Source: Alistipes sp. Marseille-P5061
GTDB taxonomy: Bacteria > Bacteroidota > Bacteroidia > Bacteroidales > Rikenellaceae
DNA: 64,000 bases
Assembly (NCBI RefSeq): GCF_900290115.1
Contig: NZ_LT985748.1
Location: 1-64,000, forward strand
Reading direction: 5' to 3'
The position numbers and the translations under genes are program-made. The notes under the pieces were generated by a model. It searched no databases and had not been told where the DNA came from. It saw only the letters and a program-made list of their open reading frames with translations. Below, piece by piece: positions 25,742-31,679 of this stretch; the first letter of the stretch is position 1; each line of letters begins with the position of its first letter.

Positions 25742-27097
25742 ATGTCGAAAATCATTACACTACGCAAGGGTCTCGACATCAATCTTCAGGGCAAGGCCGA
25801 GGAGACGTTGGCGGAAGCGCCGCGTTCGTCCGAATATGCCGTGTCGCCCCTCGATTTCGAGGGCGTGACGCCCAAGCTGCTGGTTAAGGTGGGTGACAAG
25901 GTGAAGGCGGGCACGCCGTTGTTCTTCAACAAGTACAACGAGCGGGTGCTCTTCACGTCGCCTGTCAGCGGCACGGTGACGGCGGTCAACCGCGGTGAGA
26001 AGCGCAAGGTGCTCAACGTGACGGTGGCTGCCGACGAGCGTACCGACTACGAGGAGTTCGCACGGCTCGAGCCGTCGAAGGCCTCGCGCGAGGAGATTGT
26101 CGAGCTGCTGCTCAAGTCGGGCCTCTGGCCGATGCTCGTGCAGCGCCCCTACGGCATCATTGCCGACCCGAACGACGTGCCGAAGGCGGTCTTCATCTCC
26201 GCATTCGACTCCGCGCCGCTGGCCCCCGACTACAACTTCGTGCTGCAGGGCGAGCAGAAGAACCTGCAGGCAGGTATCGAGGTGATGCGTCGTCTGACCC
26301 AGGGTAAGGTGCACCTCTCGATGCGCGCCGGCGCCGAAGGTGCGATGCCGTCGCTTAGAAACGTCGAGCTGCACACCTTTGCAGGCAAGCACCCCGTGGG
26401 CAACGTCGGTGTCCAGATTCACCACATCGACCCCATCAACAAGGGTGACGTGGTCTGGACGGTCAACATCCAGGACCTGGCCATCATCGGCCGCCTGTTC
26501 AACGAGGGCCGCGTCGACATGACGAAGGTCATCGCCGTGGCCGGCTCGGAGGTTGCCGCACCGCACTACGTGCGCATCGTCTCGGGCGCCAGCGTGGCAT
26601 CGATTCTCGGCAACAACATCAAGCCCCAGAAGCCGGGCGACAGCGTCCGCATCATCTCGGGCAACGTGCTGACGGGTACGAAGGTCGCCGCCGATGGCTT
26701 CATCGGCTTCTACGCCAACATGCTGACGGTGATTCCCGAGGGCGACAAGTACGAACTGCTGGGCTGGGCGATGCCCCGCTGCAACAAGTTCTCGGTGTCG
26801 CACGCCTATTTCTCGTGGCTCTGCCCGAAGAAGTCCTACCGTCTGGACACGAACCTCAACGGCGGCGAGCGCCCCTTCGTGGTGACGGGTCTCTACGAGC
26901 AGTATCTGCCCATGGACATCTACCCGATGTATCTGCTGAAGGCCTGCCTGGCCGGCGACATCGAGAAGATGGAGAATCTGGGTATCTACGAGGTCGTGGA
27001 GGAGGACTTTGCACTCTGCGAGTTCGTCGACCCCTCGAAGACCGAGATTCAGCAGATTATCCGCGACGGTATTAACTTAATGATTAAGGAGGCTTAA
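25742..27097 (+). CDS. nqrA: Na+-translocating NADH:quinone reductase subunit A
   Basis: Peripheral cytoplasmic subunit of the sodium-pumping NADH:quinone oxidoreductase. The 451-residue product begins IITLRKGLDINLQGKAEETL and has the biotinyl/lipoyl-like GVTPKLLVKVGDKVKAGTPLF with SPVSGTVTAVNRGEKR, and the central FISAFDSAPLAPDYNF. It is the first gene of a complete nqrABCDEF operon (25742-31679) and ends with an AAGGAGG sequence that serves as ribosome binding site for nqrB, which starts 2 nt after its stop. Length and motifs are normal. Confidence 0.97.
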   Translation: MSKIITLRKGLDINLQGKAEETLAEAPRSSEYAVSPLDFEGVTPKLLVKVGDKVKAGTPLFFNKYNERVLFTSPVSGTVTAVNRGEKRKVLNVTVAADERTDYEEFARLEPSKASREEIVELLLKSGLWPMLVQRPYGIIADPNDVPKAVFISAFDSAPLAPDYNFVLQGEQKNLQAGIEVMRRLTQGKVHLSMRAGAEGAMPSLRNVELHTFAGKHPVGNVGVQIHHIDPINKGDVVWTVNIQDLAIIGRLFNEGRVDMTKVIAVAGSEVAAPHYVRIVSGASVASILGNNIKPQKPGDSVRIISGNVLTGTKVAADGFIGFYANMLTVIPEGDKYELLGWAMPRCNKFSVSHAYFSWLCPKKSYRLDTNLNGGERPFVVTGLYEQYLPMDIYPMYLLKACLAGDIEKMENLGIYEVVEEDFALCEFVDPSKTEIQQIIRDGINLMIKEA

Positions 27098-27099
27098 CG

Positions 27100-28227
27100 A
27101 TGGGACTGCGTAAATTCATGGACAACATCAAGCCCACTTTTACCAAGGGCGGTAAACTGGGCTTCCTCGAATCGACATTCGATGCGTTCGAGACCTTCCT
27201 CTTCGTGCCCAATACGACTACGACGAAGGGTGCGCACATCCGCGACTGCAACGATATGAAACGTACGATGATTGTGGTGGTCGTGGCGCTGCTGCCGGCA
27301 TTCCTCTTCGGATGCTTCAATACGGGTATTCAGGTCGGCCTGACGGGCTTCACGGCCTTCTTCTACGGTCTGGTGCGCGTGCTGCCGATGGTCTGCGTCT
27401 CCTACATCGTCGGTCTGGGCATCGAGTTCGCCTTCGCCCAGGCGCGCGGCCACGAGGTCAACGAGGGCTTCCTCGTCTCGGGTCTGCTCATCCCGATGAT
27501 TATGCCGGTGAGCACGCCGCTGTGGATGGTGGCCCTCGCAACGGCCTTTGCCGTAGTCTTCGGCAAGGAGGTCTTCGGCGGTACGGGCATGAACGTCTTC
27601 AACCCCGCGCTGCTGGCCCGCGCATTCGCATTCTTCGCCTACACCCCCTCGATGTCGGGTGAGACGGTCTGGTACTCCGACTGGACGATGATGGGCGCTC
27701 ACGTCGACGGCATCACCGGTGCCACGGCCCTCGAGCAGCTCGGCTCGACCGGCACGATGACCTTCTCGCCGCTGGACGCCTTCCTGGGCTTCATCCCCGG
27801 TTCGTTCGGCGAGACCTCGACGCTGGCCATCCTCATCGGTGCCGCGATTCTGCTGCTGACGGGCATCGCCTCGTGGCGTACGATGCTTTCGGTCTTTGTC
27901 GGCGGTCTGGCGATGGGCTACCTCTTCCAGGCTCTCGGCGTGACGGAGTATCCCGCATGGTGGCACCTGATTGTCGGCGGTTTCGCCTTCGGTGCGGTCT
28001 TCATGGCCACCGACCCCGTGACCTCGGCCCAGACCAACACGGGCAAGTACATCGTCGGCTTCATGACGGGCGCCCTGGCCATCCTGATTCGCGTGGTCAA
28101 TCCGGCATATCCCGAAGGCATGATGCTTTCGATTCTCTTCATGAACGCGCTGGCTCCGCTGGTGGACCACTATGTGGTCGAGGCGAACATCTCGCGCAGA
28201 AACAAACGTGTTAAACTGGCAAAATAG
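27100..28227 (+). CDS. nqrB: Na+-translocating NADH:quinone reductase subunit B
   Basis: Membrane subunit carrying a covalently bound FMN and part of the Na+ path. The 375-residue product has about ten hydrophobic segments after an amphipathic N-terminus ([18 protein letters not shown]). The flavinylation motif [12 protein letters not shown] is present; Thr209 is the predicted FMN attachment site. Other conserved segments are [22 protein letters not shown] and [18 protein letters not shown]. It follows nqrA after 2 nt. Confidence 0.97.
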
Positions 28228-28235
28228 GGAGTAGA

Positions 28236-29126
28236 ATGGCAACGAAAAAATTCAAATGCAATGTTTGCGGCTATATCCATGAAGGTGCGGCCGCTCCCGA
28301 AAAGTGCCCCGTCTGCGGTGCTCCCGCATCGGAATTCACCCCTCTGAAGAAGAAGGGGCTGTTCAGCGACACGAACAGCAACGCCTATATCATCATGTAC
28401 TCGACGGTGATGGTCATCATCGTGGCCGTCCTGCTGGCCGTAGCAGCGCTGGCGCTCAAGCCGCGTCAGGATGCCAACGACCTGAACGAGAAGAAGCGCA
28501 ACATTCTGGCGTCGCTCTATGCGGGTGATGCCGCAAGAATGCAGGTCGACGCGGAGAAGCTCATCGACACGATTAGCTACGACGATGTCGTCAGCGCCTA
28601 TGTGGTCAATGACCGCGGCGAGCGTATCGACGGCGATGTCTTTGCGCTGCTGAACGACCTGCCGACGGCCTTTGCCGAAGGGAAGCTCCCGGTCTTCGAG
28701 GCCAAGGACGGCCGCGTGGTGCTGCCCGTCTACGGTGCCGGTCTGTGGGGCCCGATTTGGGGCTACGTGGCGCTCGAGAAGGACATGAACACGATTTCGG
28801 GTATCATCATGGCCCACAAGGGCGAGACCCCGGGTCTGGGTTCCGAAATCGCCACGTCGAAGTATCAGTCCAAGTTCCTCGGCAAGACGATTTTCGAGGG
28901 TGACCAGTTCGTCTCGGTGAAGTTGCGCAAGGGCGGCGCCCAGGACCCCGCCCACGAGGTGGATGCCGTCTCGGGCGGTACGAAGACCTCGGACGGTGTG
29001 ACGGCCATGCTCTTCGACAGCTTCTCGCACTATCTGCCGCTGCTGGAGGCCAAGAAGGCCGCAGCCGTGCAGCCGGCAGCCGCCGAGGAAGTGTCTAACG
29101 ATGAAAATGTAGCAAGCAATGAGTAA
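28236..29126 (+). CDS. nqrC: NqrC with an N-terminal rubredoxin-like domain
   Basis: Subunit C of the sodium-pumping NADH:quinone reductase, 296 residues, normally one transmembrane helix plus a periplasmic FMN domain. Here residues 1-37 form an extra domain, [20 protein letters not shown] followed by [10 protein letters not shown]. Its cysteines C8, C11, C24 and C27 match the FeS4 site of rubrerythrin-type rubredoxins. The helix spans about 50-73. The flavinylation motif is [10 protein letters not shown] (243-252), with Thr249 predicted to carry FMN. No alternative start lies between the rubredoxin part and the helix, so the fusion is a single translation product. The 3' end overlaps nqrD by 8 nt. 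The N-terminus should face the cytoplasm, next to the NqrF redox domains. Confidence 0.95.
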
Positions 29127-29775
29127 GAACGAAAGAGAGCCTTTGTTTTCGGCTAAGAACATGAAATACCTGACGGGTCCCTTCTCGGCGAACAACCCCG
29201 TCATCGTGCAGATTCTCGGTATCTGCTCGGCTCTGGCCGTCACCGTACAGCTCAAGCCGGCCATCGTCATGGCACTTTCGGTGACGGTGGTGACCGCCTT
29301 CTCGAACCTGGTGATGTCGCTGCTGCGCAACGGCGTGCCGGCGCGTATCCGCATCATCGTCCAGCTGGTGGTCATCGCCGCGCTGGTGATTCTGGTGGAC
29401 CAGGTGCTGAAGGCCTACGTCTATGAGGTCTCCAAGCAGCTGTCGGTCTACGTGGGTCTGATTATCACCAACTGTATCGTCATGGGCCGTGTCGAGGCCT
29501 TCGCGCTGGCCAACAAGCCGTGGCCTTCGTTCCTCGACGGTATCGGCAACGGCCTGGGCTACGGCATGATTCTGGTCATCGTGGCCTTCTTCCGCGAACT
29601 GCTCGGTTCGGGCAGCCTGCTGGGCTACCGCATCATCCCCGAAAGCTGGTACATGTCCGAGGGCGGCTTCTATTCGAACTGCGGTCTGATGCTCTTCCCG
29701 CCCATGGCGCTGATTATCGTCGGCTGCATCATCTGGGTACACCGTTCGCGCAACAAGGATTTACAGGAAAAATAG
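29119..29775 (+). CDS. nqrD: Na+-translocating NADH:quinone reductase subunit D
   Basis: Integral membrane subunit that with NqrE coordinates an intramembrane 2Fe-2S centre. The 218-residue product has six hydrophobic helices. The cluster cysteines are visible in half-helix motifs [11 protein letters not shown] and [15 protein letters not shown]. Conserved segments [15 protein letters not shown] and [16 protein letters not shown] follow. The ATG overlaps the end of nqrC by 8 nt (ATGAGTAA), indicating translational coupling. Confidence 0.97.
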
Positions 29776-29785
29776 AAGATAACGT

Positions 29786-30394
29786 ATGGAAACACTGAAT
29801 ATCTTTATCCGGTCGATTTTTATCGACAACATGGTCTTCGCCTTCTTCTTCGGCATGTGCTCCTACATCGCCGTGTCGAAGAGCGTCAAGACCGCACTGG
29901 GTCTCGGTGCCGCCGTTACCTTCGTGATGGTGATGACCGTTCCGCTGAACTATCTGCTCTATGAATACGTGCTCAAGGCCAACGCACTGGTCGAGGGTGT
30001 CGATTTGAACTTCCTCACCTTCATCGTCTTCATCGCAACGATTGCCGCATTCGTGCAGCTCGTCGAGATGATTGTCGAGAAGTTCTCGCCGACGCTCTAC
30101 AACCAGCTGGGTATCTTCCTGCCGCTGATTGCCGTCAACTGCGCCATCATGGGCGGTTCGCTCTTCATGCAGCAGAAGGTTGACGCCGGCGAGCTCACCT
30201 CGTTCGTGCAGACCGTAGCCTATGGACTGGGTTCGGGCCTTGGCTGGTGGCTGGCAATCGTCATGATGGCCGCCATCCGCGAGAAGACGACCTATTCGCA
30301 CATTCCCGCAGCGCTGAAGGGCCCCGGCATCGCCTTCATCATCACCGGCCTGATGGGTATCGCCTTCATGATATTCTCGGGCATCCAGTTCTAA
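29786..30394 (+). CDS. nqrE: Na+-translocating NADH:quinone reductase subunit E
   Basis: Homologue of NqrD inserted in inverted topology. The 202-residue product has six helices and supplies the other two ligands of the intramembrane 2Fe-2S centre, in NMVFAFFFGMCSYIAVSK and PLIAVNCAIMGGSLFM. Other conserved stretches are VAYGLGSGLGWWLAIVMMAA and a C-terminal GITGLMGIAFM-type helix. It starts 10 nt after nqrD. Confidence 0.97.
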   Translation: METLNIFIRSIFIDNMVFAFFFGMCSYIAVSKSVKTALGLGAAVTFVMVMTVPLNYLLYEYVLKANALVEGVDLNFLTFIVFIATIAAFVQLVEMIVEKFSPTLYNQLGIFLPLIAVNCAIMGGSLFMQQKVDAGELTSFVQTVAYGLGSGLGWWLAIVMMAAIREKTTYSHIPAALKGPGIAFIITGLMGIAFMIFSGIQF

Positions 30395-30416
30395 CCTGTA
30401 AAAAGTGATTTAGAAA

Positions 30417-31679
30417 ATGGAATTGACAATCATCATAGCAATCGTGGCCTTCCTTGTCATCACGCTCGTCCTGGTGGCAATCCTGCTCGTAGCGAAGGCG
30501 AAGCTGACCTCGTCGGGCGAAGTGACGATTGACATCAACGACGGCGAGAAGGTCATCAAGGCCGAGAGCGGCAACTCGCTGCTTTCGACGCTGGCCAACA
30601 ACAAGGTGTTCCTGCCTTCGGCCTGCGGCGGCGGCGGTTCGTGCGGCATGTGCAAGTGCCAGGTCATGGAGGGCGGCGGTGACATCCTGCCGACCGAAAC
30701 GGGCTTCATCTCGCGCAAGATGGCCAAGGACCACTGGCGTCTGGGCTGCCAGGTGAAGGTGAAGAACGACCTCAAAATCAAGGTGCCCGAATCCGTTCTG
30801 GGCGTGAAGAAGTGGGAGTGCACCGTAGTATCGAACCGCAACATCTCGACCTTCCTCAAGGAGTTCGTGGTGAAGCTGCCCGAAGGCGAGCACCTCAAGT
30901 TCCGCAGCGGCGGTTACATCCAGATTGACATCCCGAAGTACGATGCCATCAAGTTCTCGGACATGGACGTTGACGAGAGGTACCGCGCCGACTGGGACCG
31001 CATGAAGATGTGGAATTTGGTGGCCACCAACCCCGAGCCGACCTTCCGCGCCTACTCGATGGCCAACCACCCGGCCGAGGGCAACATCATCATGCTCAAC
31101 ATCCGTATTGCCACTCCTCCGTTCGACCGTGCGACCGGCACGTTCAAGAAGGTGAACCCGGGTATCTGCTCGTCGTACATCTTCTCGCGCAAGCCGGGTG
31201 ACAAGGTGACCATCTCGGGCCCCTACGGCGAGTTCTTCCTGCCGGACAACCTGCCCGACACGCAGGAGCTCATCTTCGTGGGCGGCGGTGCCGGTATGGC
31301 GCCCATGCGCAGCCACATCATGCACCTCTTCAAGACCGAGAAGACGAAGCGTCCGGTATCGTTCTGGTACGGTGCCCGTGCGCTCAAGGAGGCTCCCTAT
31401 CTGCACGAGTTCCACGAAATCGAAAAGGAGTTCCCCAACTTCTCGTTCCACCTGGCGCTCGACCGTCCCGACCCGGAGGCCGATGCAGCAGGCGTGAAGT
31501 ATACGCCGGGATTCGTCCACAACGTGCTCTACGAGAACTATCTGAAGCACCATCAGGCACCCGAGGACTGCATCTACCTCATGTGCGGACCCCCGATGAT
31601 GATTGCGTCGGTGGTGAAGATGCTCGACTCGCTCGGCGTACCGCCCGAGAACATCCTCTACGACAACTTCGGCTCGTAG
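30417..31679 (+). CDS. nqrF: Na+-translocating NADH:quinone reductase subunit F
   Basis: NADH-oxidising subunit and electron entry point, 420 residues. An N-terminal transmembrane helix (residues 2-24) anchors a 2Fe-2S ferredoxin domain with the cysteine cluster ACGGGGSCGMCKCQVM and a fourth Cys in WRLGCQ. The FAD domain has FRAYSMANHPAE and PGICSSYIFSRKPGD. The NADH domain has FVGGGAGMAPMRSH and YLMCGPPMM with the C-terminal aromatic region YDNFGS. It is the last gene of the nqr operon and is followed by a strong terminator at 31714. It is the likely reductant of any rubredoxin centre on NqrC. Confidence 0.97.
   Translation: MELTIIIAIVAFLVITLVLVAILLVAKAKLTSSGEVTIDINDGEKVIKAESGNSLLSTLANNKVFLPSACGGGGSCGMCKCQVMEGGGDILPTETGFISRKMAKDHWRLGCQVKVKNDLKIKVPESVLGVKKWECTVVSNRNISTFLKEFVVKLPEGEHLKFRSGGYIQIDIPKYDAIKFSDMDVDERYRADWDRMKMWNLVATNPEPTFRAYSMANHPAEGNIIMLNIRIATPPFDRATGTFKKVNPGICSSYIFSRKPGDKVTISGPYGEFFLPDNLPDTQELIFVGGGAGMAPMRSHIMHLFKTEKTKRPVSFWYGARALKEAPYLHEFHEIEKEFPNFSFHLALDRPDPEADAAGVKYTPGFVHNVLYENYLKHHQAPEDCIYLMCGPPMMIASVVKMLDSLGVPPENILYDNFGS

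Follow-up and report, generated by a model that had tools for sequence, protein, structure and literature searches.

Organization of the nqr operon

The analyzed window, a 64,000-nucleotide stretch of an Alistipes genome, carries a complete nqrABCDEF operon on the forward strand (25742-31679). The six products all exceed a TIGR equivalog cut-off: nqrA (25742-27097; TIGR01936, 503 bits), nqrB (27100-28227; TIGR01937, 451 bits), nqrC (28236-29126; TIGR01938, 174.2 bits against a cut-off of 144), nqrD (29119-29775; TIGR01939, 319 bits), nqrE (29786-30394; TIGR01940, 279 bits) and nqrF (30417-31679; TIGR01941, 610 bits), with nqrC lying between nqrB and nqrD. As read from the Cys positions in the sequence, the cluster ligands are all there, namely C36 and C119 of NqrD, C25 and C119 of NqrE, and C70, C76, C79 and C111 in the ferredoxin domain of NqrF, which also contains the FAD/NAD domains.

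The nqrC gene is preceded by a Shine-Dalgarno-like AGGGAG (28226-28231) that overlaps the stop codon of nqrB, and similar purine-rich stretches are found upstream of most of eight fused nqrC genes. From the ATG at 28236, the frame encodes 296 residues plus stop without an internal stop, and examination of the reading frame revealed neither disruption nor a sign of a pseudogene. A start-codon error is ruled out, as no ATG, GTG or TTG occurs in frame between the rubredoxin domain and the membrane helix, which is also the case in 85 of 147 fused homologues. With no later in-frame start, the rubredoxin domain must be translated together with NqrC.

A second NqrE/RnfA-like gene, sharing 43% identity with NqrE, is located at G000:C1:766012-766575 on the reverse strand. 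The genome that holds it probably also encodes an Rnf complex, judging from sequence, and a family search of this genome placed no rubredoxin-type domain at this second gene.

Architecture and predicted structure of NqrC

NqrC begins with a short rubredoxin (RUBY_RBDX) domain (residues 1-37; 28236-28346), followed by a lysine-rich linker (residues 38-48; 28347-28379) that coincides with a block of lower pLDDT, a single transmembrane helix (residues 49-75; 28380-28460), seen as a hydrophobic stretch that begins the model helix 49-94, and an FMN_bind domain (residues 169-259; 28740-29012; Pfam, E 1e-15). The body is thus that of a normal NqrC, with a single N-terminal membrane helix and then the FMN_bind domain, in which G247, T249 and T251 are invariant. 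The invariant Thr of the SGGT motif is the predicted site of covalent FMN attachment. The uninterrupted run from the extra domain into an ordinary NqrC, as noticed in the preliminary description, is therefore borne out by the frame and by both the FMN_bind and TIGR01938 matches.

The N-terminal domain contains C8, C11, C24 and C27 arranged as CxxC-x12-CxxC, within the motifs GYIHEG and APEKCPVCG. Its residues 6-34 match RUBY_RBDX (PF21349) at 54.2 bits, against a cut-off of 26.5 (E 9e-15), whereas canonical rubredoxin (PF00301) falls short, at 11.8 bits against a cut-off of 23; the two Cys pairs are separated by 12 residues, compared to about 30 in canonical rubredoxin. Profile search also gave weak zinc-ribbon matches, and NqrC has no Pfam match to Rubrerythrin or Ferritin, the diiron four-helix bundle.

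AlphaFold2 models of 57 fusions have a mean pLDDT of 92.7, with values of ~88-97 for the rubredoxin domain. Structural similarity search using Foldseek aligned the first NqrC residues to rubrerythrin (PDB 1RYT), at 0.6 Å over 35 columns, and the same part to PDB 4TPU, a disulfide reductase to which a rubredoxin domain is fused, at 0.6 Å over 37; rubredoxin-type structures are the best solved matches for the domain. Profile and predicted fold alike agree with the rubredoxin-like domain first recognized from its four cysteines, and together with the distribution they rule out chance CxxC motifs.

The FMN part was aligned to NqrC structures, with PDB 3LWX, the NqrC FMN domain of Parabacteroides distasonis, as the top match in the PDB. 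The 198 matched residues of 3LWX are letter-for-letter identical to a locus in our set (L210), the full gene of which begins MAKYKCKVCGYVHEGNKAPDTCPVC, encoding a rubredoxin domain and then the membrane helix. The parent protein thus has the fusion, whereas the crystallized construct starts past the membrane helix and is devoid of the rubredoxin domain.

The N-terminus of NqrC is known to lie inside in Vibrio cholerae, and a KKK stretch before the helix agrees with this topology. By this analogy the rubredoxin domain should hang from the cytoplasmic face near NqrF, the side expected for it from the outset. Across 163 fusions, the distance from F34 to N49 varies from 9 to 126 residues, with a median of 18.

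Conservation and selection on the domain

Conservation was counted over 87 distinct fusions from loci retrieved independently of the domain, leaving out the loci found by the peptide MATKKFKC. Residues C8, C11, C24, C27, G12, E16, G17, P25 and F34 are 100% conserved (87/87), the Cys motif itself having been part of how the fusions were recognized. Y13 is kept along with F34. Position 10 is Val in 76 and position 29 is Ala in 79 of the 87 fusions, and the places of the classical Asn and His are taken by other residues, Val/Ile/Thr and Ala/Val. Among 104 NqrC proteins that lack the domain, none has a degenerate or remnant Cys motif upstream.

Between pairs of fusions, the domain is on average 74% identical and the body 51%, the domain exceeding the body in 95% of pairs. 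Over 14 independent Alistipes pairs, the domain has a dN/dS of 0.107 and the body one of 0.140. Purifying selection on the domain is at least as strong as that on the rest of NqrC. Altogether, the invariant cysteines, the higher identity of the domain and the low dN/dS indicated that the metal site is what selection keeps.

Distribution and evolution of the fusion

The homologue search proposed in the preliminary description found the fusion, counted where a match begins at query residue 1-5, in at least 159 species-level genomes from five Bacteroidales families. Among NqrC-bearing genomes, it is present in 41 of 149 from Alistipes and 32 of 102 from the family that includes Parabacteroides. 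In family f19, 10 of 17 carry it; the family holding the Phocaeicola locus L093 has it in at least 75 of 259, and family f42 in one genome among the matches listed. No other Bacteroidales family has it among the matches listed, nor does any of the 52 NqrC-bearing genomes from other orders of the phylum. Named records with the fusion include Parabacteroides (P. distasonis), Paraprevotella, Prevotella, Phocaeicola and Alistipes.

The presence is patchy, and sister species run the same nqr operon without the rubredoxin domain. Absence from close relatives combined with a disrupted frame here had been named as grounds for doubt; many close relatives do lack the domain, and the frame here is intact. 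On the tree of the NqrC body, the fusion state changes at least nine times, and within Alistipes at least five times, gains and losses being counted alike. A single clade for all Alistipes fusions, as expected from a single gain, was rejected (p-AU 0.0015). Comparison of the domain sequences, which spans 32 columns, too few for a tree, fits better with a single old fusion followed by losses and exchanges than with many captures.

Several loci deviate from the common pattern. In one Bacteroidaceae genome (L281/L309; G793:C18:14681-15826), NqrC carries three rubredoxin domains in tandem, of which two are nearly identical; this is either a recent duplication or an assembly artefact, and none of 10 NqrC-bearing congeners has more than one. 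Two Prevotellaceae MAGs (L127 and L133) encode fusions with long Cys-rich C-terminal tails of CPMAGCPKEDC- and GQGQC-type repeats, for which a periplasmic location is expected. In two Alistipes loci (L006/L071), the domain is 92% identical to that of the f42 locus (L141), the f42 NqrC as a whole being only about 45% identical to that of the window; from the sequences, a transfer of the domain alone is possible. A MAG contig labelled Clostridium (L112) has a fused NqrC that groups inside Paraprevotella, and is probably mis-binned or mislabelled.

The domain is most similar to that of reverse rubrerythrin

The NqrC domain shares about 60% (55-65%) identity with the N-terminal domain of reverse rubrerythrin, compared to about 40% with the classical C-terminal rubrerythrin domain. 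By sequence, its closest relative is the former. The early assignment to the rubrerythrin style thus holds for the rubredoxin type, but the likeness is to reverse rather than classical rubrerythrin, and the Asn and His of the latter are missing. The NqrC domains of different families share about 55-90% identity, mostly about 70, and are closer to one another than to reverse rubrerythrin, so that a separate capture from the reverse rubrerythrin of each host is not favored.

The genome of the window encodes two other RUBY_RBDX proteins above the cut-off. In one, a reverse rubrerythrin, the domain is N-terminal, and in the other, a classical rubrerythrin, it is C-terminal; both proteins have a Rubrerythrin/Ferritin-type diiron match in Pfam. 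It also encodes a free rubredoxin. Its strong Pyr_redox_2 proteins comprise, by family model, a dihydrolipoyl dehydrogenase and a CoA-disulfide-reductase-like protein and, by sequence features, a thioredoxin reductase-like and a GltD-like protein, with no stand-alone NADH:rubredoxin reductase among them. Reverse-rubrerythrin matches occur in Alistipes species both with and without the fusion, and no fetched nqr locus has a rubrerythrin gene beside it. One reverse and one classical rubrerythrin are encoded in one genome at L244:2750-3304 and L243:3872-4522, both on the reverse strand and neither near nqr; this classical rubrerythrin has the high-potential residues (CRNC...CKHP).

Proposed role and alternatives

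We tentatively favor a role of the NqrC domain as an accessory outlet by which electrons leave NqrF for (reverse) rubrerythrins. The domain would be a tethered mononuclear Fe(Cys)4 centre on the cytoplasmic side, with iron as the presumed metal. NADH would reduce NqrF, first the FAD and then the 2Fe-2S cluster; most electrons would pass via NqrD/E, the FMN of NqrC and NqrB to menaquinone, with Na+ pumped, and some might hop from the mobile ferredoxin domain of NqrF to the rubredoxin domain of NqrC. From there, they would go to soluble acceptors in the cytoplasm, of which reverse rubrerythrin and rubrerythrin are the likeliest, and H2O2 and O2 could thereby be reduced at the membrane. It is possible, though we hold this with more reserve, that Na+-NQR is branched in many gut Bacteroidales, the pump itself acting as the NADH:rubrerythrin reductase via this domain.

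That the centre is accessory follows from the sister species and relatives that keep NQR without it, and its patchy presence beside intact ligands in NqrD, NqrE and NqrF fits an accessory branch. Rubrerythrin centres have potentials of +185 to +280 mV, credited to Asn and His near the cysteines, and the short rubredoxin domain of Clostridium difficile FDP_F was measured near -110 mV (PMC6033852). As the NqrC domain likewise lacks the classical Asn and His, we estimate its potential at between about -110 and 0 mV. This would be downhill from NADH and near or above menaquinone, which would suit the reduction of rubrerythrins and make the domain a poor point of electron entry. Reverse rubrerythrins reduce H2O2 and O2 with electrons from NADH when supplied with a small rubredoxin domain and the reductase of that domain, their natural donors being unknown (PMC7482061). 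The exit is favored by the conservation and predicted fold of the domain, its likeness to reverse rubrerythrin, the expected potential, the host's own rubrerythrins and the lack of a stand-alone NADH:rubredoxin reductase among the strong Pyr_redox_2 proteins of the host. Against it stand the absence of one-to-one pairing, as reverse rubrerythrin occurs in Alistipes species whether or not their NqrC is fused, and the lack of a rubrerythrin gene adjoining any fetched nqr locus; moreover, the free rubredoxin and the CoA-disulfide-reductase-like protein could serve instead, and electrons leaving before the pump would waste Na+ translocation.

A buffer or relay within the complex, in which the domain takes an electron from the 2Fe-2S cluster of NqrF and stores it or hands it on to the 2Fe-2S cluster of NqrD/E, appears unlikely but merits consideration. 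Needing no outside partner, it would make the large movements of NQR domains easier or reduce flavin autoxidation. The domain is tethered, by a linker of median 18 residues, to the helix of a subunit that shuttles between NqrD/E and NqrB (PMC12174285), and the three tandem copies in one species are wire-like. For complex I, it has been proposed that the additional cluster N1a holds an electron and so lowers ROS (discussed in PMC5210497). However, sister species with the same operon dispense with the domain, which is hence not needed in line, and a centre with a potential near -110 mV or above would not readily donate to a low-potential relay. Of the relay suggested earlier, a form on which pumping depends is unlikely in view of the patchy distribution and the expected potentials.

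We consider it rather unlikely that the domain binds zinc and, devoid of a redox role, serves structure, docking or assembly on the cytoplasmic face. Knuckles of the CxxC...CPxC type are common to zinc ribbons, to which weak matches exist, and Fe and Zn are indistinguishable from sequence. Nevertheless, RUBY_RBDX is by far the top match and above its cut-off, the best solved matches are rubredoxin-type, Y13 and F34 are kept, and an assembly factor that is needed would not be expected to occur so patchily.

Less probable still is a redox or oxygen sensor, in which oxidation of Fe(Cys)4 alters the docking of the domain on NqrF and throttles the pump upon exposure to O2 or peroxide. Such a centre is redox-active, its place beside NqrF would suit gating, and gut-anaerobe hosts would meet traces of O2; but nothing in the sequence points to a sensor, and we know of no rubredoxin domain that gates a respiratory pump. 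An entry site, raised in the preliminary description, would receive electrons from rubredoxin or another soluble donor and is highly improbable. In its favor are the structural match to 4TPU, a disulfide reductase whose kind of fused rubredoxin domain is generally read as an inlet, and the rubredoxin encoded in the host genome. Against it, apart from the patchy distribution, a domain with a potential of about -110 mV or above would make little if any energy available for Na+ pumping toward menaquinone, the potential of which is about -80 mV.

Na+-NQR is a main NADH:quinone pump of Bacteroides and Prevotella. The fused NqrC represents a second form of this complex in abundant gut commensals, which has been passed over by annotation and crystallography; the structural work that we found gives Na+-NQR one fixed cofactor set. 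If the electron exit is true, it would tie energy conservation directly to the defence against oxygen and peroxide, and would name the reductant of rubrerythrin in anaerobes where NADH:rubredoxin reductase was not found. The exit model is directly testable in P. distasonis.

Comparison with known NQR and rubredoxin systems

We found no description of a rubredoxin domain on NqrC in the open-access literature, within which it appears undescribed, and a 2025 review on RNF and NQR has no mention of "rubredoxin". In agreement with the initial claim, the NqrC proteins of two species in which it has been studied lack such a domain. The NqrC of V. cholerae (7XK3, 8A1T and others) shares the membrane helix, the FMN domain, the place in the operon and the cluster ligands of NqrD, NqrE and NqrF, but has nothing before the helix, its chain being matched by the profile only from alignment position 54 on. 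The NqrC of Prevotella bryantii, of 210 residues, is also devoid of the domain (PMC6560451).

The classical rubrerythrin of Desulfovibrio vulgaris (1RYT, 1B71) has the same domain fold (0.6-1.4 Å) and spacing, but differs from NqrC in the C-terminal position of the domain, the high-potential Asn and His, and the fused diiron domain. Reverse rubrerythrins, such as revRbr1/2 of C. difficile (PMC7482061), have an N-terminal domain that starts with M-A-(T), similar to NqrC. They combine this short rubredoxin with a diiron four-helix bundle, which NqrC lacks, and carry DKF or EKF in place of the -SEF- or -SAF- signature of the NqrC domains. The class F flavodiiron protein of C. difficile, FDP_F (PMC6033852), resembles NqrC in having a short rubredoxin domain without the classical Asn and His in an NADH-linked flavoprotein; however, FDP_F is a soluble O2 reductase, whereas NqrC is part of a membrane pump.
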